Positions 1 through 36,073 of a DNA stretch of 42,227 nucleotides are shown piece after piece. The stretch spans positions 1 through 42,227 of the forward strand of contig PGXW01000023.1 of assembly GCA_002839355.1 (NCBI GenBank), written 5' to 3'. Below the pieces are notes generated by a model. It did no database searches. It was not told the origin of the DNA and was given only the letters and a program-made list of their open reading frames with translations. The stretch comes from Spirochaetae bacterium HGW-Spirochaetae-2. Lineage in GTDB: Bacteria; Spirochaetota; Spirochaetia; Sphaerochaetales; Sphaerochaetaceae. How positions within the stretch are numbered: position 1 is the first letter of the stretch; every line of letters starts with the position of its first letter. The position numbers and the translations under genes are program-made.

Positions 1-106
1 TGAAGAATTTCATGGCAATGATCTACTTTGTCTGTGGAGAGCTTGCTCTTCCCAAAGCCACCATCATGTAGGGTTACCCACTCGATTCAGCGAATAACCC
101 TATTAT

Positions 107-394
107 TTGGTTCATTTTGATAATGATGGTATAGTTACCTATCGCCACTTCATCAACCCGGAGGATCCTGCCAATTGGTCATACCGCCAAGTCGGCAATT
201 ATGGCGAAGTACTTACCGATTCGGTGGTAGGCTACCGGGCGCATGCCGATATGCGACTGGGGAACCTGTCGTTCGGCATCTCGCTCGATGTACCGTCGTA
301 TGGATACACCTTCAGCAGTACTTCTGCCGACGATATCGAACCGAACTTCGATAAGGCTAGGATCGGCGCATCGGCGATGTACTGGTTCCTCTAA
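107..394 (+). pseudogene. Probable C-terminal remnant of a beta-barrel outer-membrane protein
   Basis: This open frame gives 95 residues from a TTG, but no ribosome site precedes it and an in-frame TAA lies at 95-97. The product has alternating hydrophobic and polar residues rich in Y, S, G and N, and ends in the aromatic string MYWFL. That pattern resembles the last strands of an outer-membrane barrel with a C-terminal aromatic signal. I read it as the 3' end of a broken or truncated surface protein. The bases before it do not continue it in the same frame. The family is not recognised, and it could instead be a small expressed protein. Confidence 0.35.
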
Positions 395-454
395 CGCATC
401 CCATATCACGCATCGTCAATGCATCATCCGGGATGAAGCCGGAGGCTTGGAAAC

Positions 455-1666
455 CTACTCGTAGTCGAGCACCTCGTCCAACACGGGCATCTCATCCTCA
501 TCGAAGTTGCCGAGATCCAAGGACTTCACCGAACTTTGACCGACCTCACCATACTGGTACAACTGGTCGAGATACTCGATGGCACCGCGGATCTTGGTCC
601 GCAGCAAGTGTCCACCCTTGTCCATCGACCGCAGCATATCGTCGATACTCACCGGGGGAGACCATCCATAGGCCTTGCCATGGAAATCGACCAACCGCAG
701 TACAACATCGCGCACCTCGGCTTTGGTCAATGGTGCAAGTTGCTCGGCATCAAGTATGGCTTGGAGTACATGACGTATCGGACGCGCCGATTCATCATCA
801 TACAATTCCTTCAAATTCTCGAATTCATGCTTGCTCTCGATCACGTCCTCGGCATACGAGGAACTTATGGCGAACAGGCTATACGTGGAAGCGAAGGATT
901 TCGGGGGGAACAGGAAATCGGCCATATTCGCATACGCCTTCAACCGTGTCTTCTTGCCCAGTCGTCCGGTCAATTCGGTCTCATCGAACAGGAGCACCCA
1001 TCCGGCATATCCGGAGCGAAGAAAAAACTGGCTCAGGAATGCAAAATAATCGCGGTAATGCTTCGACTTCACGAAATTGACAGAGAAGGCGACCCGTTCA
1101 TCGAAAATTCTCCGATAAATCTGTTTGATCTGCAGGTTGGGGACAAAATCGCCTTCCAGATCGGTTTGCAGCAGATATCGTTCATCCTGGTCATCGGAAT
1201 TCAGATATGACCTGAGAAGATAGTACAAGCGGTCGGTCTCCAACTGCTTGGCGGTGTGCAGCAGCAATTCGTTGGATAACGGACTGTTCGGCGTCAACTG
1301 CTCGATCTCTTGCATGAAGCCCGGTTGGATCCGTTGCGGAAGGTAAGTATTGTTCACTACATTCTTGTAGATGTGGTACAACTTGTCGAACGGCGTTTCC
1401 TTGCTCAGCGAAACAAGCGAAACGACCATATTGTTCGCATGGGCAAGATTGAACACTGTATTAAGCAAATGCGTCTTGCCTTCACCATATTTGCCACTGA
1501 TCACTTTTCCGGTGGAAACACCCTCGTCCCGCACGGAATCGAGGTCATGGATGATCTGCTGCATGATCTGCGCCCGAGCCTCGGAGAAATACCGGCCCAC
1601 AGCCCGCGAGGGGATGCCGGAACGCAAGGCTTCGATCATATGTCTTGATGGAAAATCGAATGTCAT
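455..1666 (-). CDS. BREX-type P-loop ATPase (DUF2791/BrxD-like), third gene of the ATPase operon
   Basis: This 403-residue protein carries a Walker A loop GKYGEGKT (58-65) and a Walker B strand VLLFDE (224-229). Its N-terminal segment IEALRSGIPSRAV (11-23) matches what I remember of the start of BREX system ATP-binding proteins (DUF2791, BrxD). In type 2 BREX, BrxD is a partner of the helicase BrxHI. The ATG at 1666 overlaps the stop of the upstream ATPase gene (ATGA), and GAAGGAG lies 7 bases before it, so the two are translationally coupled. It is probably a cytoplasmic AAA-like motor or switch in a DNA-surveillance complex (inference). BrxD membership is from recall of the family, not a search. 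Confidence 0.8.
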   Translation of the reverse strand: MTFDFPSRHMIEALRSGIPSRAVGRYFSEARAQIMQQIIHDLDSVRDEGVSTGKVISGKYGEGKTHLLNTVFNLAHANNMVVSLVSLSKETPFDKLYHIYKNVVNNTYLPQRIQPGFMQEIEQLTPNSPLSNELLLHTAKQLETDRLYYLLRSYLNSDDQDERYLLQTDLEGDFVPNLQIKQIYRRIFDERVAFSVNFVKSKHYRDYFAFLSQFFLRSGYAGWVLLFDETELTGRLGKKTRLKAYANMADFLFPPKSFASTYSLFAISSSYAEDVIESKHEFENLKELYDDESARPIRHVLQAILDAEQLAPLTKAEVRDVVLRLVDFHGKAYGWSPPVSIDDMLRSMDKGGHLLRTKIRGAIEYLDQLYQYGEVGQSSVKSLDLGNFDEDEMPVLDEVLDYE

Positions 1667-2916
1667 AGCACCACTCCTTCGGACGAAGCCAGCGTAGCTT
1701 GGTTCACCAATCGTGGAATCGAAAGTCCCCCCATGCGAGCCATGTTGACAATTTCCGTTGCCTTGGCTTCATCGATCGCCTGCGCATGCACTTCGATACT
1801 GTTGACAACCTGTGCGAGCCGTTTGGACATCTCCACCAACATGTGGGGCGAATAGACCTGCAACGCCATGGCATCCATATCCAATATATCGCCGAACCGA
1901 TTCATGCGGGTTCCGACAATCTCGTTTTGGATCCGCATCCACAATGCCTGGTATGACTTGATGCCGCTGTTCTCGTTATCCAGCAACACCTTGTCGAAGG
2001 CAAACAGGAACATGATGTTGCGAAAATTGTCTATATCGTCGATCAATTGCCTGATGCTCTCGTACGTATCGTCACGTTTCATCTTGGTATAATGCATGGG
2101 ATTGAGGCTGGATTTGTCCACCATCACCTCCAGATTGTCAATGCATACGAGCAATCCGGCATGTCCACTGAGACGGACAACCTCGGCCAAGGAGCGCAAC
2201 ATGTGGCGAGCGTTGAATTTGGTGATGCGCGATGGTGCCATTCCCAATGGTCTCAAGGAGGCGACTTTGATCGATTTGTCTCCGTTGAGCCAAGCAAGCA
2301 GCGTCTGCCTGCTTTGGCCTTCCAGGAACGGATGTCCCAGCAGTCCACCGCACAAAAGGCTGCAGGCGAGCGCAAAATTGTTATCCAGCAGCTTGTTGTC
2401 CAAGAACAGTTCCTTCAATTGGACACGGATTTCCCGTCGGGTCAAGGCATCGGCCAGTCCCAGATGGCTCAAGTGGTCGATAAAGGTCATCCCCTCGGGG
2501 ATATCGCGATGGTCGAATCCGAGCGAGGAAACAACCGCATGGCTACACGCCTGCAACAACTGCTCAAGGTCGCATTGGCTGAGGATCTCCAGATAGATTT
2601 CCTTGAAATCGTGCAACCAGACATCCTTGGCAGAGAAATGGACGGTGACAAAATGTTCCTTGCGCGCCATCGATGAAAGCAGATGCAACGCATGTGTCTT
2701 GCCGCTGCCACTCTGCCCCGTTAGAAACTTGATCTTGCTGCCACCGGCCGGAATGAATTCCCGCAGATACTTCTCCCGCCAGAAATCCCCGACGAAATTG
2801 AATCCTACCGAAAGTTGTTCCAACATCGATTCGCCTTGTGGTGGTTCTCCATGGGTGAGCTGCACAATAGTGGAATGATGCGCGTCATAGGGATGACTCT
2901 CGATCTTCATTTCCAT
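1663..2916 (-). CDS. Second BREX-like P-loop ATPase, second gene of the ATPase operon
   Basis: The product is 417 residues from the chosen start. Walker A is GQSGSGKT (67-74) and the Walker B-like strand is LLVCIDN (255-261), with Asp-Asn where most AAA proteins have Asp-Glu. The stretch around residues 219-250 (RPLGMAPSRITKFNARHMLR) and the later YESIRQLIDDID are typical of BREX system ATP-binding domain proteins as I recall them. An ATG at 2937 overlaps the stop of the preceding gene, but AGGAGG (2922-2927) sits correctly only for ATGs at 2919, 2916 or 2910. I chose 2916, which has 5-base spacing. It is clearly diverged from the ATPase encoded just downstream, so the two probably form a hetero-complex (inference). 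Confidence 0.78.
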   Translation of the reverse strand: MEMKIESHPYDAHHSTIVQLTHGEPPQGESMLEQLSVGFNFVGDFWREKYLREFIPAGGSKIKFLTGQSGSGKTHALHLLSSMARKEHFVTVHFSAKDVWLHDFKEIYLEILSQCDLEQLLQACSHAVVSSLGFDHRDIPEGMTFIDHLSHLGLADALTRREIRVQLKELFLDNKLLDNNFALACSLLCGGLLGHPFLEGQSRQTLLAWLNGDKSIKVASLRPLGMAPSRITKFNARHMLRSLAEVVRLSGHAGLLVCIDNLEVMVDKSSLNPMHYTKMKRDDTYESIRQLIDDIDNFRNIMFLFAFDKVLLDNENSGIKSYQALWMRIQNEIVGTRMNRFGDILDMDAMALQVYSPHMLVEMSKRLAQVVNSIEVHAQAIDEAKATEIVNMARMGGLSIPRLVNQATLASSEGVVL

Positions 2917-2933
2917 CATGCCCTCCTCTGCTG

Positions 2934-3701
2934 TCATGCGTAGAATCGGATGGTCGCCAGAAACTGCTCACGCCCTTCCCCATCCAATATCCTGATAGCC
3001 TTGTTGTTGTTCCGGCTCGGCCCGAATTGATATGTCCGACCATCCTTGGTCTCGATCGGGTCCGAAAGGTACAATCGGGCCAGGTCGAACGCATAGCTCT
3101 GCAGGTCGTACTCCTTGCGCGCCCGACTCATGGGAACAAGGAACTTGTACAACGTGTTCAGATAGATATCGGCATCTGCTTTCTTGTCGAGTTTCAGCAC
3201 CGCCAGGTCGTACGCGGCGGCAAGTTCATTGGCGAACTGCCCTGCGTTGAACGATGCCTTCATGAGCTTTTCACGCTCCTGCTTGACTGTCTGGACAAAA
3301 AATTCCGGACGCATGCAAGATATCTTCCTGCGGTCCAAGAACAGATCCTGGTTTTCGACATCGACACGGACCTTGTAGGGAAACATTTCGAAGTTGGGAA
3401 AGGTTCCGACAACATCGACTGCGTGCCGCAGACACAGATCGAGCATCTGTTTGGTGAATGCCCCGCTCTCGAGATATTCCCTCGCATCGAAACCGGCGAG
3501 TGCCTGTTGCAACTCCCCCACTATCCGGCCGATGTCCTCATGCACAGCAATGCTAGCCGCAATATCCTTGGTTGCCGCCTTCACGTCACCGGCAGCCAAC
3601 TCCTTCGTGATCGCCTTCTGCAATTTGGCGGCCAAGGAGGTCTTCTCCTTCCACGATTTCTCCAACAATTGGGTCTGGTCATAGAGCAATTCATAATCCA
3701 T
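2934..3701 (-). CDS. Unknown coiled-coil protein, first gene of the ATPase operon
   Basis: I do not recognise this 255-residue protein. Residues about 10-70 are rich in K, E, A and Q with heptad-like spacing and probably form helices or a coiled coil. The C-terminal end has a basic, glycine-containing patch YQFGPSRNNNKAIRILD beginning near residue 224. No membrane segment or catalytic motif is evident. ATG 3701 is chosen because AGAGG lies 8 bases upstream; an in-frame ATG at 3722 has no ribosome site. Its stop overlaps the next gene's first possible ATG. As the leading gene of the ATPase operon it may be a recruitment or sensor subunit (inference). Confidence 0.75.
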   Translation of the reverse strand: MDYELLYDQTQLLEKSWKEKTSLAAKLQKAITKELAAGDVKAATKDIAASIAVHEDIGRIVGELQQALAGFDAREYLESGAFTKQMLDLCLRHAVDVVGTFPNFEMFPYKVRVDVENQDLFLDRRKISCMRPEFFVQTVKQEREKLMKASFNAGQFANELAAAYDLAVLKLDKKADADIYLNTLYKFLVPMSRARKEYDLQSYAFDLARLYLSDPIETKDGRTYQFGPSRNNNKAIRILDGEGREQFLATIRFYA

Positions 3702-3766
3702 AAGAAGTACCTCTGTGTGCATTGTGTTACATGATGCTATGATATAATCTGTATCTACGCAAGTAT

Positions 3767-3814
3767 TTTGGTATGAAAAACATTTGGTATGAAAAACATT
3801 TGGTATGAAAAACA
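3767..3814. repeat. Three perfect 16-bp tandem repeats (TTTGGTATGAAAAACA)
   Basis: Units occupy 3767-3782, 3783-3798 and 3799-3814 without a mismatch. The array ends 4 bp behind the putative -35 of the ATPase operon, where an activator or repressor array would sit. It is not CRISPR, because there are no spacers. Confidence 0.9.
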
Positions 3815-3967
3815 TGACGTGTTCCAGTAGTTGCCAAGCGGTCCGAAAGGTGAGGGACCATGCAAGCTCCCGCCCCCGAGCAATCGCAGGCAACGCTAGA
3901 GTCCATACGTGGGCACTTTGGGGCGGAAAGAGAGAAACCGCATCTTGGATCCATTCCTTGTCTTGGG

Positions 3968-3993
3968 GAGTGTGATACCTAGAGTGTGATACC
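3968..3993. repeat. Two direct repeats GAGTGTGATACC, period 14 bp
   Basis: Copies at 3968-3979 and 3982-3993 are identical and separated by TA. They lie upstream of the helicase start at 4094 and could be operator half-sites for its promoter. Confidence 0.75.
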
Positions 3994-4093
3994 GTATTAT
4001 TCCGTCGTGTCGTGACAGATCCGATCCTACCGGGACTTATCGGGTAAAGACATGAATTGCAATCCAATCGAATAGCATTGGAAAGGAGGATGC

Positions 4094-5644
4094 GTGAGTC
4101 TTTCATTGTACCCCTGGCAACAATCCTGCATGGAAGCATGGTTTCACAACAAAGGTCGGGGAATCGTACAGGTGGTCACCGGTGCCGGAAAGACCTTCAT
4201 GGCCCTCAGCTGCGCGCATCAGCTCGATGCCAACTATCAGGGAAAGTTGAAAATTCGGATACTGGTACCGAAGACCTTCATGGTCTCGCAATGGAAATCC
4301 TTTATTCTGGACCAGCATGAATTGTTCGGCATCGAGCGGCAGGATATTGGCATATGGTATGGACTGCACAAGGACCCACCCGACCGCAAGGTCATGCTTT
4401 ATGTCATAAACTCGGCTCGGTTGTCCTTTTCGCGCCACTTGTTGGCGGATTTGGCCGAAGGGACCCCGATCATGCTGATTGCCGACGAATGCCACCATTA
4501 CGCCAGCGAAGAAAACCGAAGGATCTTCGAATTCCTGCCTGAAGTGCCCTCTCAAGCCCTTTCCCGCCTCCATACGTTGGGACTTTCCGCTACCCCCCAG
4601 ACCGAAGGATTCGAACAGGTCCTGGTCCCATCGCTCGGCCCGCTCATCTACGCCTATGGATTTTCCGAGGCCATGCACCACCGTGTGATAAATAATTGTA
4701 CCCTGTACAATATCAGCCTCCCCATGGCTACGGAAGAACAACTGCAGTACGAAAAATACTCCATCGGTATCAGGAGACTCATCTCCAGGCTGCACCTCAG
4801 GACAACTGGATCCGATGTAAGAGAACTTGGTCAGTTCTTTATTCGGATTCGGAAATTGACAGGTGATGCCGATCCGCTGGTTGCCCGACGTGCAAAACAG
4901 TTGATCATGCTCCTATACAAAAGGAAAGCTTTGGTGTACGAGGCCTCTGCACGCGTCGAGTGCGCCTTCCAGATAATCACCCGCCTCGATCCCAATTCCC
5001 GGATCATCATCTTCAGCGAACGCATCAGCCAAACCGAAATGCTGTACGAATTGGTCGAGGCACAATGGCCCGGACACGTAGGACGCTACCACAGCAAGAT
5101 GGGAGAAGTCGCCAGAACTCGTGCGTTACAGCGCTACCGTGAAAAGGAAGTGCGGATTCTAGTGTGCTGTCGGGCGTTGGACGAGGGTTTTGATATTCCC
5201 GCCGCGGATGTCGGTATCGTGTTGTCGGGAACATCGACCGAGCGACAGCGGACCCAGCGGCTAGGGCGCATCTTGCGTCGTGCAGAGGGCAAGCTGGTTT
5301 CGAGCCTATTCTACCTATATCTGGATGGAACCGTAGAGGACCATGCGCTGTTCGCCGAATCGATCGAAGATGTCCTTGAATTCGATCTGCAGTATGTGGG
5401 ACAACCCCATGGGTTCGCACATCCGGTGTACGACCAACTGGCTTCACGTATTGTATCCCAGGAAATCGATCGGGGCATGGATGAGAACAAAATCGCATGG
5501 CTACAGCAGTTCCTGCAACTTGGACAACTTCGGACCGATTGGCTGCTGGATGCGGATGTGCTGGCACAAAGAGTCAAGAATTCCCACTCCCAAGTTCAAC
5601 GCAACTATTGGATGTGCATGGTGCGGATGGCACGTACACGGTAA
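4094..5644 (+). CDS. SF2 DECH-box helicase, BrxHI/XPB-like, of the putative defence module
   Basis: This 516-residue helicase has the SF2 motif set: TGAGKT (29-34, motif I), DECH (131-134, II), SAT (165-167, III), ALDEGFDIP (361-369, V) and QRTQRLGRILRR (385-396, VI). The compact layout resembles the SSL2/XPB group (COG1061), to which BREX BrxHI-type helicases belong as I recall. The start is GTG 4094, with AAAGGAGG ending 4 bases before it. It is transcribed away from the BrxD-like ATPase operon across a 392-bp control region. It probably translocates on or unwinds invading DNA for the ATPases (inference). A general repair helicase is the alternative. Confidence 0.85.
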   Translation: MSLSLYPWQQSCMEAWFHNKGRGIVQVVTGAGKTFMALSCAHQLDANYQGKLKIRILVPKTFMVSQWKSFILDQHELFGIERQDIGIWYGLHKDPPDRKVMLYVINSARLSFSRHLLADLAEGTPIMLIADECHHYASEENRRIFEFLPEVPSQALSRLHTLGLSATPQTEGFEQVLVPSLGPLIYAYGFSEAMHHRVINNCTLYNISLPMATEEQLQYEKYSIGIRRLISRLHLRTTGSDVRELGQFFIRIRKLTGDADPLVARRAKQLIMLLYKRKALVYEASARVECAFQIITRLDPNSRIIIFSERISQTEMLYELVEAQWPGHVGRYHSKMGEVARTRALQRYREKEVRILVCCRALDEGFDIPAADVGIVLSGTSTERQRTQRLGRILRRAEGKLVSSLFYLYLDGTVEDHALFAESIEDVLEFDLQYVGQPHGFAHPVYDQLASRIVSQEIDRGMDENKIAWLQQFLQLGQLRTDWLLDADVLAQRVKNSHSQVQRNYWMCMVRMARTR

Positions 5645-5724
5645 GTACCTGGTACCAAATTATGATTTTGTATACAAAATTGAATAATGGTGCCAGACAC
5701 CGATTTTAGATTTTGTATGCAAAG
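5644..5724. repeat. 58-bp triple-palindrome repeat, copy 1, with an extra half unit
   Basis: The left arm GTACCTGGTACC ends at 5656, the core TTTTGTATACAAAA is 5666-5679, and the right arm GGTGCCAGACACC is 5689-5701; all gaps are 9 bp. A second core (TTTTGTATGCAAAG, 5711-5724) follows after another 9-bp gap but lacks a right arm. The repeat begins on the last base of the helicase stop codon. It contains the stop codon and last codons of the convergent gene at 5706-6314. Confidence 0.9.
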
Positions 5725-6314
5725 TCGGAGAAGGGAATTGATTTTGCTTGCCAGTCCGGGCAATGGTCCTCCAAGAAACTGTTTAGGTTTCGCGAACCAG
5801 CGGTATCATCGGCGTGTCGACCCTTCCAATCTTCGATCAAATCCTTGGCAGACGATTCTGGGAAATCCTCCACATAGTCAAAAAAATCGCTGTGTGATTC
5901 AAACGTGAATCGGTAGAGCCCCAACAAAACTCCATGAAGATAGGTTTGTTCCGAAATGTGTTCACCTACCTGGTGGAACTCACCAATTTGATACAGGAAG
6001 GGTGAGAACGCATCTGAAACCATGTCATATGCAACATCGAATTCATCACGATATCCACCGCCACGCTGTCTGCCAGAAGCATCCCAACAATCTTCGATAG
6101 CAATCCCATCGAGCGCGTTGTACACTGAGGAAGCGACGTCCTCCACCGAGACATGACAATAGATCCTAGCTGAGACTTTGGAAATCTCCTTGGCGAAGAC
6201 TTCATCCGTATCTGCCAATATTGCCAATACCTGTAACGCCTGTTCACCTTTTAGGGGATACATTCGAGGAGCGTCCCCACTTTCAGCACCTTTCCGCCTG
6301 GATTTCTTTTCCAT
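5706..6314 (-). CDS. Unknown 202-residue protein bracketed by two repeat copies
   Basis: I do not recognise this soluble, acidic, aromatic-rich protein. It opens with a lysine/arginine cluster (MEKKSRRKG), and the body is predicted mostly helical, without signal peptide or catalytic motif. ATG 6314 is chosen because AAGGAAGG precedes it by about 10 bases. An in-frame ATG at 6347 lies inside a 58-bp repeat and has no ribosome site. The last six residues (DFAYKI) are encoded by the repeat core of copy 1, so the stop codon was probably supplied or altered by the repeat. It lies 54 bp behind the MATE gene on the same strand and may be the tail of the marR-MATE operon. Confidence 0.65.
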   Translation of the reverse strand: MEKKSRRKGAESGDAPRMYPLKGEQALQVLAILADTDEVFAKEISKVSARIYCHVSVEDVASSVYNALDGIAIEDCWDASGRQRGGGYRDEFDVAYDMVSDAFSPFLYQIGEFHQVGEHISEQTYLHGVLLGLYRFTFESHSDFFDYVEDFPESSAKDLIEDWKGRHADDTAGSRNLNSFLEDHCPDWQAKSIPFSDFAYKI

Positions 6315-6332
6315 TTTATCCGAACCTTCCTT

Positions 6333-6390
6333 GGTACCAGATACCATAATATTATTTTGTATGCAAAATCACAACTTGGTACCAGGTACC
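6333..6390. repeat. 58-bp triple-palindrome repeat, copy 2
   Basis: Arms are GGTACCAGATACC (6333-6345) and GGTACCAGGTACC (6378-6390), and the core is TTTTGTATGCAAAA (6355-6368), with 9-bp gaps. The stop codon of the MATE gene (6369-6371) lies inside it, so the last residues of the transporter (VPGTKL) are repeat-encoded. Confidence 0.92.
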
Positions 6391-7766
6391 TTCGTGGGAA
6401 CCCCCAATCGCTTGATCCCGAAATAGAACCAGATGCCGGTGACTGTCGATGATATGGCGTCGGCAAACGGTGCGGTGTGGACGAGGCCCGGCATCCCCCA
6501 AATCTTGGGAAAAATCACGATTGCAGGTATGAGCAGGATTACTTGTCGCAACAATATCAGGAACAATGCCGAACGGGGCCGCCCCGTGGCTTGGAAAAAG
6601 TTGGCCGCGATCACCTGGAAGCCGATGACAGGAAGGATCAGGAACCAGGAACGAAGCGCATAGCTGCCGAATTCAACAAGTTCGGCATCGCTGGTGAATA
6701 TTGACACCAATTCCCTGGAAAACAACTGCACCACGAGGAATCCGATGGTAACAATAAAGGTTGCGACGGTAATGGCAAGGGCCTCGGCTGTCTTGACCCG
6801 TCCGTACTTCTTCGCACCGTAGTTGAACCCAACAATCGGCTGGACGCCCTGGTTCAACCCGATGATAGGCATCAACAGCATCGTCTGGACACTGTTCACA
6901 ATACCCATGGCCGATACCGCGAGGTCTCCACCATAGAACAGAAGATTCTTGTTCAGCGTCACATTCAGCACGCTGTTGGCCAACTGCATGAGGAATCCGG
7001 GCAGACCCAACGCCACAATACTGGCAACAATAGCCCGTTTAAGCCGCATGGAGCGTAATGTGATCACATGCCGACTCTTCTTCTTATTGAGAAAATAGGA
7101 GAGTATCCAGATCATGGAAATACATTGGGCAATAATTGTTGCCAAGGCGGCTCCGACCATCCCCATCTTGAAACCGAAGATGAAGAGGGCATCCAGTATG
7201 ATGTTGATGCCAGCTCCGACGAACATCGTGATCATCGCTCGCTTCGGCTGGCCGGCAGCCCGCAGGAAATTGTTCATTCCCATGCTGGTCACCTGGAAGA
7301 TCGCGCCGAGGAAAATCACACGCATGTAGCTTGCGGCATAGGGCATCACCGCTTCGCTCGCCCCGAACATGCGTAGCAACGGCATGAGAAACAGTTCACC
7401 CAATACCATGAACAGCAAACCACTGCCCACCAGCAAAGCAAAAGCATTGCCCAAGACCTTATGTGCTTCCTCGGTTTTTCCCTCGCCCAACCGTATCGAG
7501 AACGTTGTGGCTCCCCCTACTCCGAACAGAATACCGATCGACATGAGGATGATCATGATGGGGAATCCGATGGTGATGCCTGCCAATCCGTTGACACCCA
7601 AATCGGCGGCATTGCCTATGAACATGCGGTCGACCACGTTGTACAACGCGTTCACCATCATCCCCACAATTGCGGGTAGGGAAAATTGTGCCAATAATCG
7701 GGAAACCTTCACAAATCCAAGCGGATTTCCCTGTGCCTCATCCAATGAATGCTTCATGGTATCCAT
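6369..7766 (-). CDS. MATE-family multidrug/cation antiporter
   Basis: This 465-residue protein has about twelve hydrophobic membrane segments in two similar halves. MATE-type sequences include PAIVGMMVNALYNVVDRMF near the N-terminus, GLPGFLMQLANS at the start of the second half, and GVQPIVGFNYGA. The family exports cationic drugs or metabolites in exchange for Na+ or H+. ATG 7766 lies 4 bases after the stop of the marR gene, so expression is probably coupled to that repressor. The C-terminus runs into a 58-bp repeat, which provides the final codons and the stop. Confidence 0.93.
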   Translation of the reverse strand: MDTMKHSLDEAQGNPLGFVKVSRLLAQFSLPAIVGMMVNALYNVVDRMFIGNAADLGVNGLAGITIGFPIMIILMSIGILFGVGGATTFSIRLGEGKTEEAHKVLGNAFALLVGSGLLFMVLGELFLMPLLRMFGASEAVMPYAASYMRVIFLGAIFQVTSMGMNNFLRAAGQPKRAMITMFVGAGINIILDALFIFGFKMGMVGAALATIIAQCISMIWILSYFLNKKKSRHVITLRSMRLKRAIVASIVALGLPGFLMQLANSVLNVTLNKNLLFYGGDLAVSAMGIVNSVQTMLLMPIIGLNQGVQPIVGFNYGAKKYGRVKTAEALAITVATFIVTIGFLVVQLFSRELVSIFTSDAELVEFGSYALRSWFLILPVIGFQVIAANFFQATGRPRSALFLILLRQVILLIPAIVIFPKIWGMPGLVHTAPFADAISSTVTGIWFYFGIKRLGVPTKVPGTKL

Positions 7767-7770
7767 CCCG

Positions 7771-8187
7771 TTACTGCCCTACGTGCGAGACCATCGTTTC
7801 GAGTGTCCCATACAATGCATCCCGCGTCTCTTCATCCATTCCAGCTGCCAAAAGCTCGCTCCATTGCGATAGGATCGGCAAGACATACAGCTTGCTCTCC
7901 TTCCCCTTCTCGGTGAGGAAAATGCGGTTGAACCGCTTGTCGTCCACGGCCTTCCTCTTTACCACGAAACCTTTCGCGACCAGCGATTGTACCACCCGGG
8001 CAGTCGCGGCCTTGTCGATGTTCAAGTGCTCCGACAATTGTTCTTGCGTCATGCCATTGTAATGGTACAGGGACGTGAGGAACGGTTGCTCGGACGCGGT
8101 CAAGCCATATTCCTTCAACGCCGAGTTCATATACACGAGGCTTTTCCGATAGAGGATAGAAATCAGCCTACCGATACTTTTCGCCAC
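7771..8187 (-). CDS. MarR-family repressor of the adjacent MATE exporter
   Basis: This is a winged-helix MarR protein of 138 residues. The recognition region reads QEQLSEHLNIDKAATARVVQSL, followed by a wing with the typical D-x-R pair (VDDKRFNRIFLTEKG). The frame is open to a TTG at 8217, but that TTG lies inside an operator and upstream of the likely transcription start. GTG 8187, with AAGGGG 7 bases before it, is the better start. It leads a two- or three-gene operon with the MATE exporter. It probably represses its own promoter until a ligand, perhaps a MATE substrate, binds (family knowledge and context). Confidence 0.92.
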   Translation of the reverse strand: MAKSIGRLISILYRKSLVYMNSALKEYGLTASEQPFLTSLYHYNGMTQEQLSEHLNIDKAATARVVQSLVAKGFVVKRKAVDDKRFNRIFLTEKGKESKLYVLPILSQWSELLAAGMDEETRDALYGTLETMVSHVGQ

Positions 8188-8204
8188 GACATATCCCCTT
8201 CTTG

Positions 8205-8246
8205 GTTGATACGTCAACTATTATACTTATTCGTTGACTTGTCAAC
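8205..8246 (-). promoter_or_regulatory. marR-MATE promoter with two MarR-type operators
   Basis: Two 14-bp palindromes of the form GTTGA-N4-TCAAC lie at 8205-8218 and 8233-8246, centred 28 bp apart. A minus-strand -10 TATAAT (8220-8225) lies between them, with a -35-like TTGACA inside the upstream site at a short 14-bp spacing. Occupation of both sites would block RNA polymerase, consistent with MarR autorepression. Confidence 0.75.
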
Positions 8247-8252
8247 TACTTT

Positions 8253-8310
8253 GGTACCTGGCACCATATTTACATTTTGTATGCAAAATTGAAAAACGGT
8301 ACCTGGCACG
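8253..8310. repeat. 58-bp triple-palindrome repeat, copy 3
   Basis: Arms are GGTACCTGGCACC (8253-8265) and GGTACCTGGCACG (8298-8310), and the core is TTTTGTATGCAAAA (8275-8288), with 9-bp gaps. The right end touches the stop codon of the LarA-like gene at 8311. Confidence 0.93.
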
Positions 8311-9516
8311 TTATGAAATAATTATATTCGGATCATCCTGTATCTCATTCAGTACGGCTTTGGAGACATACATCTCTTCCAAGTGCAAGGTGTCGTGGAT
8401 ACGGATCACTCTAGGATTGGCCCGGGAGCTGGCACGGCACGTGGCCAACGCCGCGGCTATGGCATCCTCGTCGGACTCCATCACGAGGGGAAGCTTGCCC
8501 CGCTCGGGAAAGATGCAGGAGATGCAATTCGTATAGGTCGACGGAAAATCGATCTTGTCGAAGAACCTGCGGGTGATGAAATCGGCCAAGCCGATTCCGG
8601 CCGCATTGCCCTGGGAATGCTCGGAAAGGTCGCACACCACCACCCGGTGGATAATCGGGGTATGCAAGTCCCGTTCCCCCTCCAACCGCATCCGTCCGAT
8701 CACATGGGTATCGATGCAGCTACCGCTGTAGTCCTTGCCACCCTCGTCGATCACCAGGACATCCAGGCGGTCCACCGGCAACTTGGGTGAAAGCTCCAGC
8801 GCATACCGGAGCAACTCCTTCTCCCTCGACACCATGTCCTCGGGGGCAACAACCTCGACCAAGGCGGTTTCGGCATAGGCGTTCTCTACGATCGCCACCC
8901 CAAAGAGCACTTTCCCGGTAGCGACCACGTCGGTCGCGATCAGCGGAATCGAATCGGAAAGCACTTCCAACCCGTTGTGGTGCAAAATCTCCGCCTGCTT
9001 CTTGTTGCCCAATCCGATGGCGATCATCTTGCACAAACCGCTCTCGATAGGAGCGTGGATATCGGTATGCTTCTTCACCCGGTTGATCACCACCATGCAA
9101 TCGGCATCCCATGCAAGCTTGTTCACATGGACAGCATCGCCATAGGCCGCACCGAAGAAGGACACCGTCTCGGTGGAAGCCATCACCGGAATCCCTAGGG
9201 CCTCCTCGGTAATCCCGTACCCGCGCAGGACTTCCAGCTGACCGTCGACCGTTCCACCGCCGTGCGAACCCATGCACGCCACAACGAACGGCTGCAGATC
9301 CCAGGAGACCAGGAAATCGGCTACCGTCCGTACAATCGGAACGAGGTCGGTTATTCCGCGGCTGCCGACGGCCAGGGCAACCTTGGCACCACGGGCCGGA
9401 AGGTTATCCAGACGTTGCAGTTGCTCCAGCACGTTGGGCACGAGGGTATCCATCACCGGACGCTTCAAGCGTTGGCGCACCTTGACGAGTTGGGGAAGCT
9501 CTAGGTTTGTGTTCAC
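8311..9516 (-). CDS. LarA-like (DUF2088) nickel-pincer racemase family protein
   Basis: This 401-residue protein has the LarA/DUF2088 layout: an early glycine-rich AVGSRGITD, then ACMGSHGGG, then INRVKKHTDIHAPIESGLCKM, where the His and Lys match positions used around the nickel-pincer cofactor in lactate racemase. Family members racemise or epimerise 2-hydroxy acids. GTG 9516 overlaps the stop of the gntR gene (GTGA), so it closes the dct-aminoacylase operon. No larB, larC or larE cofactor gene is in the window, so cofactor supply must come from elsewhere if it is active. Its substrate may be the hydroxy or amino acid handled by this operon (inference). Confidence 0.82.
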   Translation of the reverse strand: MNTNLELPQLVKVRQRLKRPVMDTLVPNVLEQLQRLDNLPARGAKVALAVGSRGITDLVPIVRTVADFLVSWDLQPFVVACMGSHGGGTVDGQLEVLRGYGITEEALGIPVMASTETVSFFGAAYGDAVHVNKLAWDADCMVVINRVKKHTDIHAPIESGLCKMIAIGLGNKKQAEILHHNGLEVLSDSIPLIATDVVATGKVLFGVAIVENAYAETALVEVVAPEDMVSREKELLRYALELSPKLPVDRLDVLVIDEGGKDYSGSCIDTHVIGRMRLEGERDLHTPIIHRVVVCDLSEHSQGNAAGIGLADFITRRFFDKIDFPSTYTNCISCIFPERGKLPLVMESDEDAIAAALATCRASSRANPRVIRIHDTLHLEEMYVSKAVLNEIQDDPNIIIS

Positions 9517-10184
9517 GCCTTCAATGTCCCTTCGTTTCGGATATATGCCCTGAAGTTCTCCAGACCGACACGTACATGGTTGTACATAAGCAGCTGCACC
9601 TGGTCGGGTTCAAGGTCCCGTTTGGTGAAATGCTCCATCAATTCGTCATGGGTGTGCAAGTCCACCTCAAGGTCGACTTCAAAGAATTGCATGTTGTACC
9701 ACATGTTCTGCACACGCAACTTCTCACAAATCTCGACGAGCACACCATTGCGGCTCACCTCGCCGAAAAACCGCTGGAAATCATTGTGGTGGTGCAGATA
9801 TCCGAAGGTATCCTTCGCAGCGACATCCATCTCCATCGCATGGTAGAGCCCCTGCAACCGCTTCAGGTCGCCATCGGACATACGCATGTAAGCATCGCGT
9901 GCGGCAAGACCCTCAAGACTCATGCGCACCTCGTAGATGTTCTCGATCTCCTCGGATGTCAGGACCTTCACGAAGCAACCGCGACGGTTCTTGCGTTCGA
10001 CCAGCCCGGCGTTGATCAGCATCTGGAACGCTTCGCGGACCGGCGACTTGCTGACCTGGAACTCCTCCTGGAACATGGCTTCGACCAACTTGTCCCCGGC
10101 TTTGTGCTTGCCTAGGAGGATGTCTTTGGAAATCCTGCCGGAAATATAATCGGGTAGACTGAAATACGGTGAATTCTCTTCCAT
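9513..10184 (-). CDS. GntR-family (FadR/FCD) regulator of the TRAP/D-aminoacylase operon
   Basis: The N-terminal winged helix (about residues 10-75) includes FQVSKSPVREAFQMLINAGLVERKNRRGCFV, split here as the helix pair and wing. The C-terminal FCD helical domain follows, with metal/ligand-type residues in EVRMSLEGLAARD and the HHHNDFQRF stretch. Length is 223 residues, normal for the family. AGAGGAG lies 5 bases before ATG 10184. It lies 49 bp after the aminoacylase gene and overlaps the larA-like gene, so it is an internal gene of the operon it probably controls. The natural target would be the promoter in front of dctP. Confidence 0.9.
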   Translation of the reverse strand: MEENSPYFSLPDYISGRISKDILLGKHKAGDKLVEAMFQEEFQVSKSPVREAFQMLINAGLVERKNRRGCFVKVLTSEEIENIYEVRMSLEGLAARDAYMRMSDGDLKRLQGLYHAMEMDVAAKDTFGYLHHHNDFQRFFGEVSRNGVLVEICEKLRVQNMWYNMQFFEVDLEVDLHTHDELMEHFTKRDLEPDQVQLLMYNHVRVGLENFRAYIRNEGTLKA

Positions 10185-10233
10185 GACAACTCCTCTGACA
10201 ACAACAACGTTCCGGATAGCTCCAAAATCGCGC

Positions 10234-11922
10234 TTAGTTAATAATCACTGCTCCAATTCTTTTTTTCAATACATTTCTGCCATTTTCAACCACTTTCGTG
10301 CCGCCCATCCATACCTGCTCGATTCCAACCGGCCCCATACCCTGCGCCACATGCAAAACTGTGGGCCCGTCCCCGTCGGAAGACGCTTGCCCGACCGATG
10401 CATGCTCGGCGATCTTGTCGGGATCGAAGAGGACCAAATCCGCAACGGCCCCTATGGCGATGCTTCCCCGATCGGCGAGTCCCAGCCGTTCGGCGGGTTT
10501 CCCGGTGATCTTGTGTACCGCCTGTTCCAAGGAGAACAGATGATTCTTGCGGCAATAGGTTCCCAAGAGTCGGGGAAAAGCTCCCGAAGCCGCCGGCGTT
10601 TGCGGACCCGAGGTATCGGTGACAATGGCATCGATTTCGATGATGGACCGGGGATGGCTGAGCAACTTGTGCAAGGGATCGCTATAGACACCTTCCTGTC
10701 CCGAATAGGATGCGGTCAAAATACGGGCCTTGCCATCGCTTTCATCGATTATCCACAGGATCGTCTCGATTTCCCCGATCGACCTTTCATGGGCAATCTG
10801 ACGGAATGTCTTGCCCTCGAAGAGTGCCAACGCGTCGGACTCGCCGCCCCACAGGAGGATCAGGTCGTCGCTTGTACGCCCTATCTTGGCCTCCATATCG
10901 AGCAATTCGCAGCCCAGTCTGGCGACGGCATCGGCGTCCTTGCTGTTGCACTCGAAATTCTCCAGGAACCAGTTGGGCAACAGCGTCTTGATGAGGGTAT
11001 TGCCCCAATGGTACGGGATCACCCCGAAGGTGATATCGCATCCATCTTCGACCGCCCGGTCGATGGTATCCAGCACACTCGATAAGGTTTCCCATGTCTT
11101 GCGTCCTTTGAGCAACACGTGCGACAGGTGCAGCTTCGTTCCCTCTTCCTTGGCCAACTTGATGAACAACTCGATATCCCGCACATTGTGGGCTACCGCA
11201 AGTTCGTCCGAATCGGTCGAATCGCTGAAGAACGGCGATATCCAGCTGTAGGTATGTCCATGGATCGTGACTATGAGTCCTTCGCGCGCGGCCGCGGCGA
11301 ATACACACCGCATCTCTTCCATATCGGCAAACATGCTGGGAATATAGGAGAGTCCCAGGGAGATGCCGTAACTGCCCGACTCCTTCGCCTGATGGATAAG
11401 ATAGACCATCTGGGAGTATTCGAATGGGGAAATCGGCGCGGGATCGTTGCCCTTGAGCAGCGACCGCAGGCTGCCGTGTCCGGTGAGCAACGCCACATTG
11501 AGCAAGGTGCCGGAGCGCGACACCATATCGGTGAATTCCTTCTGGGTTTCCCAGGCGAATTCGAAGGCTTCGTTGGTGAGGAACTGCGAGTTTGCCAGCA
11601 CCAGGTCCTTCGAGTGCCGGTCCACCGGATACGGAGAGAACCCGCAGTTGCCCCCGACGAACGTGGTCACCCCTTGGCGCAGGAACGGGAGCAAGAACTC
11701 CTCCTGGTCGGGCAACGTCAAATTCCACTCGGCATGCGAGTGGAAGTCGATGAAACCGGGAGCAAGCACGAGATGGGAGGCATCGACCAGCAACCGGGCA
11801 CGCATCGTTTTGGCATCACCTATAGCCGAGATCCGGGATCCGTCGATCGCCACATCCGCCTGATAGCGGTTTGCACCGCTACCATCCACCACCGTCGCAT
11901 TCGCAAAGACTACATCATGCAT
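10234..11922 (-). CDS. N-acyl-D-amino-acid deacylase (D-aminoacylase), amidohydrolase superfamily
   Basis: The 562-residue product has the D-aminoacylase signature PGFIDFHSH (55-63, the HxH zinc pair), the metal-bridging Cys in GGNCGFSP (Cys93), a later LHLSH and the C-terminal GAVADLVLFDPD. The family hydrolyses N-acyl-D-amino acids, or D-glutamate/D-aspartate variants, in the cytoplasm. ATG 11922 overlaps the end of the aminotransferase gene by 8 bases; the longer upstream frame is out-of-frame shadow of that gene. It lies downstream of a TRAP importer and an aminotransferase, suggesting uptake, deacylation and deamination of one substrate class. The exact substrate cannot be read from sequence. 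Confidence 0.9.
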   Translation of the reverse strand: MHDVVFANATVVDGSGANRYQADVAIDGSRISAIGDAKTMRARLLVDASHLVLAPGFIDFHSHAEWNLTLPDQEEFLLPFLRQGVTTFVGGNCGFSPYPVDRHSKDLVLANSQFLTNEAFEFAWETQKEFTDMVSRSGTLLNVALLTGHGSLRSLLKGNDPAPISPFEYSQMVYLIHQAKESGSYGISLGLSYIPSMFADMEEMRCVFAAAAREGLIVTIHGHTYSWISPFFSDSTDSDELAVAHNVRDIELFIKLAKEEGTKLHLSHVLLKGRKTWETLSSVLDTIDRAVEDGCDITFGVIPYHWGNTLIKTLLPNWFLENFECNSKDADAVARLGCELLDMEAKIGRTSDDLILLWGGESDALALFEGKTFRQIAHERSIGEIETILWIIDESDGKARILTASYSGQEGVYSDPLHKLLSHPRSIIEIDAIVTDTSGPQTPAASGAFPRLLGTYCRKNHLFSLEQAVHKITGKPAERLGLADRGSIAIGAVADLVLFDPDKIAEHASVGQASSDGDGPTVLHVAQGMGPVGIEQVWMGGTKVVENGRNVLKKRIGAVIIN

Positions 11923-13225
11923 GGTTGTTGAACATCTCCTTGAAGACATCTTCGAACACTTGAAGGGTCTTGTCGACATCCTTGTCCGTATGGGCAGTCG
12001 AAATATAGAAGCGGCCACGTCCCGAGTGCAACCTGACCCCTCGGTCCAGGCAACGCTTGTAGAAGTCGAGGTATGTCTTCTTGTCGACCTTGAAGTTGTC
12101 GCGATACTCACGCATGGGCCCGTCGATACCGAATGAGAGCTGCCAAATCGAGACCTGGCTATCGCACCAGAGGTTGACCCGGTAGCGCGAGGCCAGGAAG
12201 TTCACCCCGTCCTTGATCCTGTCGGTGATCCGCTGCATGTTCTCGTAGGTGCCGGGCCTGCCGATGATATCCAAGGTGGCGATCGCAGCTGCGACGCACA
12301 GCGGATTGGCATTGAAGGTGCCGGCAGGGTGGACACCACTTTGGAGTATTTCCCTGCTGCCGGCCACACCCGCGATCGGGTAGCCGCCGGCAAAGGCCTT
12401 GGCGAAGGTCACGAGGTCGGGAGTGACTCCGTAGAGTTCCTGTGCCCCACCGAGGGCGACACGGAAACCGGTGATGACTTCATCGAATATGAGCAAAATA
12501 TCGTTGTCCTTCGTCAGCTGTCGCATGGCCTCCAGATATCCCGGCAACGGTTTTATCGGCTCGGCATTGTACATGACCGGTTCGGTTATGACAGCCGCGA
12601 TCTCGTGCTTGTGCCGCTTGATCGTCTTTTCCAGTATCTCTATATCGTTCCAGGGCAACACAATGATCTCGTCGGAGGAGCTCTCGAGCTGTCCGGCGCT
12701 CTCCAGGCACTTCCACGGCTTGTTGCGGGGTCCCATGGATTTCAAGGAGAGGGGCTTGACGCTGATGCTCAGCTCATCTGCCCATCCGTGGTAATGTCCC
12801 TCGAACTTGATGATCTTGCTCTTTCCCGTGAAGGCCCGAGCTAGGCGGAAGTTCACCAGGTTCGCTTCGGTGCCACTGCTCTGGTACCCCACCACCTCGG
12901 CGCAGGGGATGATCTCGACCAGGCGCTTGGAGAGCTGGTTAACTGATTCGGTGGGCAACGCGAAGTGCGTGCCACGCTCTATCTGCTCGCAGACGGCCTT
13001 GTTGAGTTCGGTGTGGGAAAAGCCGAGGAGCGAGGGTCCGAACGAACCCATGTAGTCGATGTATTCGTTGCCGTCCACATCCCATATGCGGGAACCTTTG
13101 CCATGCGAAGCGTAGATCGGATATTCCTCATGTTCGGCTTTGTGCAGGGAACTGGCCACGCCGCCTACCAGGTACTGTTGGGCTTCTTGGAAAAGCTTCT
13201 TCGATGTCTCTGTATGGATTTCCAT
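11915..13225 (-). CDS. Class-III PLP aminotransferase, glutamate-1-semialdehyde-aminomutase-like
   Basis: The protein (436 residues) has the class-III fold-type I pattern: SSGTEAN (116-122, PLP phosphate), FDEVITGFR (248-256) and the PLP lysine in LVTFAKAFAGGYP (Lys276). It resembles HemL and the related D-phenylglycine aminotransferase and racemase group. The operon partners (D-aminoacylase, TRAP importer) argue for a catabolic D-amino-acid aminotransferase or racemase rather than tetrapyrrole synthesis (inference). TAGGAGG lies 5 bases before ATG 13225. It starts 34 bp after dctM. Confidence 0.88.
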   Translation of the reverse strand: MEIHTETSKKLFQEAQQYLVGGVASSLHKAEHEEYPIYASHGKGSRIWDVDGNEYIDYMGSFGPSLLGFSHTELNKAVCEQIERGTHFALPTESVNQLSKRLVEIIPCAEVVGYQSSGTEANLVNFRLARAFTGKSKIIKFEGHYHGWADELSISVKPLSLKSMGPRNKPWKCLESAGQLESSSDEIIVLPWNDIEILEKTIKRHKHEIAAVITEPVMYNAEPIKPLPGYLEAMRQLTKDNDILLIFDEVITGFRVALGGAQELYGVTPDLVTFAKAFAGGYPIAGVAGSREILQSGVHPAGTFNANPLCVAAAIATLDIIGRPGTYENMQRITDRIKDGVNFLASRYRVNLWCDSQVSIWQLSFGIDGPMREYRDNFKVDKKTYLDFYKRCLDRGVRLHSGRGRFYISTAHTDKDVDKTLQVFEDVFKEMFNNHA

Positions 13226-16236: not shown

Positions 16237-16294
16237 CGTGCCAGGCACCATTTTTTAATTTTGCATGCAAAATACAATTATGGTGCCAGGCACC
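16237..16294. repeat. 58-bp triple-palindrome repeat, copy 4
   Basis: Arms are CGTGCCAGGCACC (16237-16249) and GGTGCCAGGCACC (16282-16294), and the core is the perfect palindrome TTTTGCATGCAAAA (16259-16272), with 9-bp gaps. It lies between the dctP promoter and the 3' end of the gene at 16348. The left hairpin is followed by six Ts. Confidence 0.94.
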
Positions 16295-17241: not shown

Positions 17242-17592
17242 TTAGAATCCAAGCAGGATCGCCAGTTTTTCCTTAACCTTTGACAAGACCATGGTATCGA
17301 CAGTTTCCCGTGGCGCGGCATTTCGGGCAATCCAATCCAAACTCCTGACCTGATCAGCAAGCACAACGCCAGTTGTCTTGCCACCAAAGGAAGGAATCAC
17401 AACCTCAAAGGGGTACCCTTTCTTCTGATTGGTCACCGGGCAAATCAATGCCAAACCGCTACGAAAATTATATTCCCTTGGAGAAATCACCAAACCGGGA
17501 CGACGGCCGGCCTGCTCATGCCCGCTTTGTGGAGTAACATCCAACCACACTATTTCCCCTTCATCTGGTACGTATTGGGTTTTTACTACCAT
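17242..17592 (-). CDS. mazF: MazF/PemK-family endoribonuclease toxin
   Basis: This protein of 116 residues has the MazF pattern: an N-terminal GEIVWLDVTPQSGHEQAGRR with the R-R-P-G-L-V-I-S strand, ALICPVTNQKKGYPFEV, and VLADQVRSLDW. MazF toxins cut mRNA at short sequences when the antitoxin is lost. A start ATG at 17592 follows AAGGA closely. It lies 17 bp downstream of the mazE-like gene, the usual order. Confidence 0.93.
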   Translation of the reverse strand: MVVKTQYVPDEGEIVWLDVTPQSGHEQAGRRPGLVISPREYNFRSGLALICPVTNQKKGYPFEVVIPSFGGKTTGVVLADQVRSLDWIARNAAPRETVDTMVLSKVKEKLAILLGF

Positions 17593-18074: not shown

Positions 18075-18115
18075 TTCGACTAGCATGATTGGGTTAACAA
18101 GAGGATTGTTCTCGA

Positions 18116-18151
18116 TTTTGCATACAAAATACAAATCTGGTGCCAGGTACC
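18116..18151. repeat. 58-bp triple-palindrome repeat, copy 5 (left arm missing)
   Basis: Core TTTTGCATACAAAA (18116-18129), 9 bp, right arm GGTGCCAGGTACC (18139-18151). No arm is present at the expected 18094-18106. The core is in the opposite orientation to copies 2, 3 and 7. The arm touches the stop codon of the DUF3795 gene at 18152. Confidence 0.85.
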
Positions 18152-18706: not shown

Positions 18707-18752
18707 GGAAGTTCTCCTTTGTATACAAAATCTTAAGATGGTACCTGGTACC
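18695..18752. repeat. 58-bp triple-palindrome repeat, copy 6
   Basis: Left arm CGTGCCAGGCATG (18695-18707), core CTTTGTATACAAAA (18717-18730), right arm GGTACCTGGTACC (18740-18752), 9-bp gaps. Differences from the consensus create the ATG and the ribosome site of the DUF3795 gene on the minus strand. Confidence 0.9.
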
Positions 18753-18798: not shown

Positions 18799-18856
18799 GG
18801 AACCTGGCACCAAAGTTCAATTTTGTATGCAAAACGTGAAAACGGTGCCAGGTACG
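18799..18856. repeat. 58-bp triple-palindrome repeat, copy 7
   Basis: Arms GGAACCTGGCACC (18799-18811) and GGTGCCAGGTACG (18844-18856), core TTTTGTATGCAAAA (18821-18834), 9-bp gaps. It ends 4 bp from the stop of the metalloprotein gene at 18861 and lies 46 bp from copy 6. Confidence 0.92.
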
Positions 18857-36000: not shown

Positions 36001-36058
36001 GGTGCCTGGCACCGTTTTACCTTTTTGTATACAAAATTGAATATCGGTGCCAGGCACG
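36001..36058. repeat. 58-bp triple-palindrome repeat, copy 8
   Basis: Arms GGTGCCTGGCACC (36001-36013) and GGTGCCAGGCACG (36046-36058), core TTTTGTATACAAAA (36023-36036), 9-bp gaps. This is the copy closest to consensus. It begins 10 bp after the gntR stop and ends just before the ROK promoter. Confidence 0.95.
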
Positions 36059-36073
36059 TGGTACGAATAATTA

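Follow-up and report, generated by a model that had tools for sequence, protein, structure and literature searches.

A recurring four-gene ATPase and helicase locus in a spirochaete genome, a probable stand-alone anti-invader module

Here we describe a group of four genes in the 3.6-Mb genome (G000) of Spirochaetae bacterium HGW-Spirochaetae-2; among named relatives, Sphaerochaeta and other Sphaerochaetales are the nearest. The window analysed is the whole 42,227-bp contig PGXW01000023.1 (C74). As read in the initial annotation, which was made from the sequence alone, it carries three overlapping minus-strand genes and, divergent from them, the gene of a superfamily 2 (SF2) helicase (H). The three encode a protein of a family without a name (U) and two BrxD-type ATPases (A1 and A2). 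The quartet is a fixed, co-inherited and co-evolving unit, and U-A1-A2 is its constant core.

Sequence comparison makes a defence role of the quartet likely. We favour its interpretation as a stand-alone anti-invader module in which the U-A1-A2 core would drive a DNA motor, because kin of U, A1 and A2 are found inside CRISPR and BREX-like defence loci. A broader proposal is offered tentatively: that U-A1-A2 is a widespread defence core, made of a coiled-coil/winged-helix U and an active-inactive ORC-like pair, which serves as a common sensor-loader plugged into an XPB-type helicase, Snf2, an Lhr-like helicase, BrxL or Cas3 (subtypes I-A, I-B and I-D), and that the window quartet is its stand-alone, helicase-bearing form.

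Recurrence and accessory distribution

A scan of named genomes with an A1 alignment gave 207 relatives; the best 80, which were retained, came in all but a few cases from Sphaerochaetales or Lachnospiraceae. Six-frame profile searches over the fetched loci, earlier ones included (n = 105), found all four genes in 92, so that the quartet proposed as a stand-alone system is conserved elsewhere. In the other loci a contig end interrupts the quartet, the exceptions being L040, which is without H, and two remote loci, L131 and L132. A single unbroken hit for every gene was obtained in 82 loci. Of these, 80 have the geometry H< U> A1> A2> (eight of them duplicates, the same genome having been fetched twice); in the remaining two, H follows downstream in the same orientation. 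About 80 distinct genomes contain the quartet. Across the order (139 genomes), A1 is present in 29, U in 28 and both in 27, and most members of genus g17 have kept the quartet. Pairwise distances between loci are correlated among the four proteins (0.88-0.96), and the ratio of non-synonymous to synonymous substitution rates (dN/dS) lies at 0.01-0.17 across 11 close pairs, with H the fastest in most of them. The number of genomes, the low dN/dS and the correlated distances together place the recurrence far beyond chance. There is no conserved fifth neighbour, as no gene cluster recurs across loci.

The distribution is patchy, single-copy and accessory. The sister species G123 lacks the quartet, and the counterparts of window positions 98-394 (89% identical) and 6404-13024 (94%) are only 80 bp apart in its genome. 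Given this empty site, the quartet and an orphan open reading frame (ORF) represent a 6.0-kb gain or loss at an intergenic site, and the left flank beyond the contig end is ordinary DNA. No target duplication is visible at the insert borders, and G124, the other carrier in the genus, has different neighbours. The orphan ORF (5706-6347, 213 amino acids, aa) was considered as a fifth member and rejected; none of the fetched loci holds a homologue of it, and it matched no family. Recurrence as a unit and gain or loss between close relatives, the two marks of a stand-alone system, were thus both found.

Pfam, PADLOC and NCBIfam models of named systems do not match the quartet as a whole, and no description of it was found in the open-licence literature. 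Lack of conservation or a match to a named system had been given in advance as grounds for abandoning the proposal; the synteny and hidden Markov model searches showed neither.

Some copies depart from the common form. L096 and L101 have three extra genes between H and U, in the divergent promoter region. Others are decayed, which indicates that loss of the quartet happens: L069 (frameshift in H), L110 (broken U and H) and L117 (frameshift in A2). Errors in the sequence of metagenome assemblies could have produced these breaks.

Proteins of the quartet and partners of its core

A1 (424 aa) and A2 (403 aa) are both AAA+ ATPases of the BrxC/BrxD type (PF10923), distantly akin to the PADLOC BrxD and SngB models. 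The G000 genome holds no further PF10923 protein, and PDB sequence searches with A1 and A2 gave no relative. That the two ATPases are unequal, as first noted, is confirmed by their motifs. A2 is canonical (Walker A GKYGEGKTH, Walker B FDE), with the Walker-B glutamate kept in 90 of 90 close-family homologues and Walker A in essentially all. A1 has an intact Walker A (GQSGSGKTH) and a Walker B of the form D-N without the catalytic glutamate; among 95 close-family homologues, the second Walker-B residue is never glutamate (aspartate in 63, asparagine in 30, other in 2), and Walker A is intact in 94. Motifs located by regular expression show the same asymmetry in remote relatives, with A2 canonical and A1 D-[DN]; one remote group (L131, L187, L188, L189, L190 and L191) has also lost the P-loop from A1, and both ATPases are canonical only in L166 and L198, the most distant loci. 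A1 is therefore predicted to be an ATP-binding subunit impaired in hydrolysis. The conserved asymmetry suggests a hetero-oligomer of the ORC type, where ATP would be hydrolysed by one subunit and the other would have become structural or regulatory.

U had no match of weight in Pfam, PADLOC, NCBIfam or PHROGs, and PDB sequences gave coiled-coil matches only. Its homologues align from ATG 3701, which fixes its length at 255 aa and rules out the 401-aa version with a start at 4139 that had been annotated initially. The family is a separate one and is deeply diverse in itself. With a broader U profile (A9), members were detected in a further spirochaete family and, within the Firmicutes phylum to which G139 belongs, in 18 of 348 genomes; a search of viral contigs was unproductive. 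A model built from 66 sequences with AlphaFold2 (predicted local distance difference test, pLDDT, 91.6) comprises an N-terminal antiparallel helical hairpin (residues 1-70) and a C-terminal alpha/beta region (71-255). Its final ~100 residues repeatedly matched winged-helix domains (ORC subunits, FOX, condensin), the best with a Z score of 6.6 and a root-mean-square deviation of 3.5 Å over 77 residues, below the trusted level; the model thus gives a hint only of a winged helix. Residues 71-148 resemble frataxin-like folds (Z up to 5.9) without significance, and no TerB fold was among the fold matches listed for U.

H consists of a helicase core with motif II DECHH and a C-terminal tail of ~100 aa, and its motifs are conserved among homologues. 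As the initial annotation had it, the locus is devoid of methylase, phosphatase and nuclease: no recognised nuclease domain was found in H, no methylase in the insert (the genome was not searched for PglX) and no PglZ (PF08665) in G000. The best PADLOC match of H is PbeA (3e-56), in the helicase half only (profile positions 251-626); since the match begins at position 251, H lacks the PLD part of PbeA. Its closest solved structures are XPBII/RAD25 (PDB, 3e-39). BrxHI was rejected as an identity for H, as only the C-terminal helicase lobe matches (PADLOC, 4.7e-6).

Wherever both U and its flanks are intact, A1 and A2 follow, and the next protein varies. It is H in L199-L202, a Snf2 helicase in L131, L187 and L189, a divergent Snf2 in L132, and an Lhr/DEAD-type helicase in L166 and L198, the last also near a PLD-Snf2 protein. 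BrxL (PF13337 1.2e-90, PF20442 2.4e-19) overlaps A2 by one base in L196 (1155-6336). In three loci the core follows, directly and in the same orientation, on the 3' side of the effector operon of a type I CRISPR system. One of them (L188 in G845, also L226) is of subtype I-D, where the gene order is Cas10d, Cas7d, Cas5d, Cas3d, U-A1-A2 and Cas1 and the CRISPR array has at least 85 repeats; upstream genes are of subtype I-A in L190 (G1130; Cas3, Cas8a, Cas7, Cas5a) and of I-B in L191 (G987; Cas7b, Cas3b). The U proteins of the CRISPR-linked loci share 62-75% identity, indicating that a single branch of the core joined three CRISPR subtypes. A1 is without a P-loop in these CRISPR-adjoining cores (L188, L190 and L191).

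Further genes were seen beside remote cores. A gene of 186-193 aa without a Pfam match lies between A2 and Snf2 in L187 (12898-13476) and L189 (11858-12415), and two of the three CRISPR-linked cores have beside them a membrane protein of only 119-122 aa that by eye is DUF4282-like. L196 is a tight U-A1-A2-BrxL operon with no other BREX gene on its 7.4-kb contig. L194 (624-8577) encodes on one strand U, A1, a frameshifted A2, a 437-aa unknown protein, Hsp70 and a 545-aa unknown protein.

Proposed mechanism, known systems and alternative explanations

The context of other quartets is consistent with defence. When PADLOC models were counted at E <= 1e-20, two sets of proteins from the quartet flanks (137 and 128) gave 74 and 55 family matches, respectively, against 8 for 137 genes taken at random from six of the same genomes; these tallies are not gene counts, since one protein can match several models. 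The matches include GajB, PtuB, a type III methylase, AbiLi, MkoA, DpdE/F and a reverse transcriptase. Few PADLOC-type defence genes are present in the window itself.

By analogy with BrxD-BrxHI, Shango and PbeABCD, we propose that A1 and A2 may form an ORC/Cdc6-like hetero-oligomer on DNA, in which A1 would hold ATP structurally and A2 would hydrolyse it in a cycle gated by the A1 interface. U, with its coiled coil and possible winged-helix end, could tether the complex to DNA or to H. The trigger would be an encounter with foreign or replicating invader DNA, on which the ATPase ring would load or release H; unwinding or translocation by H would then block replication or transcription without cutting. 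The sequences show the genes themselves, their motifs, their joint inheritance and the partners of the core; complex formation, the order of events, the target and the outcome are inferred.

Several observations weigh against the anti-invader interpretation. A dN/dS as low as 0.01 is equally expected of a housekeeping function. The genes flanking the quartet in Lachnospiraceae are mostly metabolic or regulatory, those of the window are likewise metabolic, and the PADLOC family counts overstate gene counts against a control drawn from six genomes. Links to CRISPR and to BrxL concern remote relatives and not the window quartet; remote U proteins are 20-33% identical to that of the window, so that the connection is by homology, not context. 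U is absent from plasmid and phage collections, and of 2.9 million viral contigs a single one contained an A1 homologue. The structure prediction advised for U did yield a model, but Foldseek searches with the full protein and with its C-terminal part returned no significant fold match.

Several remote cores have no helicase of their own beyond a neighbouring Cas3 or BrxL, which leaves a modest chance that the module defends against plasmids or conjugation, or is an accessory coupled to Cas3, BrxL or a helicase, rather than a stand-alone anti-phage system. The window-type quartet, in contrast, always carries its own helicase, and usually stands alone.

We consider it rather unlikely that the quartet is a chromosomal DNA-maintenance operon (repair, fork restart, nucleoid) that was lost in some lineages and has no part in defence. 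Such an operon would fit the strong purifying selection, the single chromosomal copy among mostly metabolic neighbours, the XPB-like helicase and the conservation in most g17 members. However, the quartet is missing from 111 of the 139 genomes of the order, including the sister species with its empty site, and is common to two phyla. Moreover, the named systems found with a PF10923-type ATPase are all defence systems, and in relatives the core is nested in CRISPR loci or adjoins BrxL.

Among known systems, Shango combines a TerB-like protein (SngA), an ATPase (SngB) and a helicase (SngC) in ATPase-plus-helicase defence (PMC10250203). The quartet resembles it as a small stand-alone operon with a PF10923-type ATPase, an SF2 helicase and a third protein, without methylase or nuclease, and the SngB model is matched by A1 (1.8e-17) and A2 (1.9e-13; PADLOC). 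It differs in having two ATPases, one without the catalytic glutamate, where Shango has one, in having U in place of the TerB protein, and in its divergently transcribed H of the XPB/PbeA type. Neither U nor the ORF beyond H matched TerB (Pfam) or SngA (PADLOC) at E <= 1, and SngC, although its model is in the library, was not among the 25 best PADLOC matches listed for H (to E 0.011).

The BrxD-BrxHI dyad of BREX type 2, with BrxD an ORC/Cdc6-type ATPase and proposed helicase loader (PMC12839542), likewise sets a BrxD-type ORC-like ATPase beside an SF2 helicase. The quartet locus, however, is without PglX, PglZ, PglW and PglY, has paired ATPases and U, and its H is not Ski2/Lhr-like. The NCBIfam BrxD model (NF033438) scores 86 and 44 bits with the quartet ATPases against a cut-off of 350, and PglZ was below cut-off in 22 of 25 quartet genomes. 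The BREX-related label given in the initial annotation was accordingly dropped, as H is not BrxHI and the BrxD scores are low.

Dnd-Pbe is the nearest counterpart for H, which aligns with the helicase half of PbeA and DndI (TIGR04095 145 bits, cut-off 600). PbeABCD halts virus replication without cutting DNA (PMC6459918), and this cleavage-free system is a fair functional parallel. The quartet differs from Dnd-Pbe and DndI (PMC6459918, PMC11662687) in the absence of an N-terminal PLD part in H and of phosphorothioation genes, and from Dnd-Pbe in that PbeC is SMC-like and PbeB and PbeD are small unknown proteins. DndC (TIGR03183) was not found in G000 and exceeded the cut-off in 2 of the 25 quartet genomes. 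XPB and the archaeal XPBII/RAD25 resemble H in the structure of the helicase core, but H begins at the Q-motif region, has another C-terminal tail and is partnered with BrxD-like ATPases, not with TFIIH or Bax1.

A degenerate or divergent Shango or BREX type 2, instead of a separate system, would account for the BrxD and SngB matches of A1 and A2 and for the shared ATPase-plus-SF2-helicase logic. It is nevertheless improbable in view of the missing TerB protein and SngC match, the second ATPase, the absence of PglZ from the genome, BrxD scores far below the equivalog cut-off, and the separate, deeply diverse family of U. By the markers tested, the quartet is not BREX, Shango or Dnd/Pbe, and it is best called a new form among the ATPase-plus-helicase defence modules.

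Least probable is that the quartet serves the replication or mobility of an integrated element, with ORC-like ATPases, a DNA-binding U and a helicase that would replicate or mobilise their own DNA: the ORC/Cdc6-type ATPase family (PMC12839542), the clean insertion, the horizontal spread and the single viral contig in which A1 lies close to Mu-like genes would agree with it, but the insert is only 6.0 kb in all, there is no recurring integrase, relaxase, origin or structural gene around the quartet, plasmid and phage collections hold no copies, and the CRISPR and BrxL company would be left unexplained. The viral contig (L165, 1-7405; IMG/VR), the sole one bearing A1, has Mu-like structural genes directly after the module by eye, which could reflect insertion beside the module, phage carriage or misassembly.

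If the anti-invader interpretation is correct, the quartet constitutes a small defence system that works without a nuclease and is common in Sphaerochaetales and in Lachnospiraceae of the gut. PADLOC-DB 2.0.0 models give it no name, and U provides a new marker family. The asymmetric ATPase pair offers a clean test of whether BrxD/SngB-type ATPases load, gate or sense. If partner swapping is also as proposed, BREX, Shango and CRISPR would have an accessory machine in common.

Locus and surroundings

Coordinates are given in Table 1. Neighbouring genes in the U-A1-A2 run overlap by 4 bp each, and the start of H is a GTG with AGGAGG upstream; the divergent promoter region is delimited by the starts of U and H. 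It contains an exact 16-nucleotide unit, TTTGGTATGAAAAACA, three times in tandem (3767-3815), possibly an operator or a slippage repeat, and two copies of GAGTGTGATACC (3968-3993). Promoter and Rfam searches of this region gave no reliable match.

Table 1. Features of the quartet locus in the window
Feature	Position	Strand	Description
A2	455-1666	-	last gene of the U-A1-A2 operon; PF10923 1.3e-23; 4-bp overlap with A1
A1	1663-2937	-	BrxD-type ATPase, 424 aa; PF10923 5.3e-33
U	2934-3701	-	family without a name, coiled coil, 255 aa; AlphaFold2 pLDDT 91.6
H	4094-5644	+	XPB/ResIII-type SF2 helicase, 516 aa; PF04851 2.9e-19, PF00271 1.5e-16
U/H intergenic region	3702-4093		divergent promoter region; repeats seen in sequence
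Accessory insert	395-6403		quartet and orphan ORF; missing in sister genome G123

The contig edge lies 454 bp past A2, and the immediate surroundings are ordinary, with a MATE transporter and a MarR-type regulator. The initial annotation had cited nearby mazEF and AbiEii genes as signs of a defence-rich neighbourhood. A MazF-like toxin gene (17242-17592, minus strand; by eye and motif) and an AbiEii-like nucleotidyltransferase fragment at the contig end (41741-42226, minus strand; by eye, without a profile search) do exist, but they are 12 and 36 kb from the quartet, among metabolic genes, and because of this distance and setting they are weak support; the defence-island argument built on them was rejected. 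A stronger case for defence comes from beyond the window, from U-A1-A2 cores that adjoin BrxL or lie in or beside type I CRISPR loci.

A palindromic intergenic repeat of ~60-70 bp (GGTACC..GG.ACC, ATTTTGTATGCAAAAT, GGTACC) is dispersed in the window (5645-5727, 6333-6400, 8253-8312, 16237-16290, 18114-18151, 18718-18745, 18802-18855 and 36023-36059) and resembles repetitive extragenic palindromes or miniature inverted-repeat transposable elements. One copy lies just after H and another at the right border of the insert, and the repeat is also present at dozens of sites in the sister genome G123.

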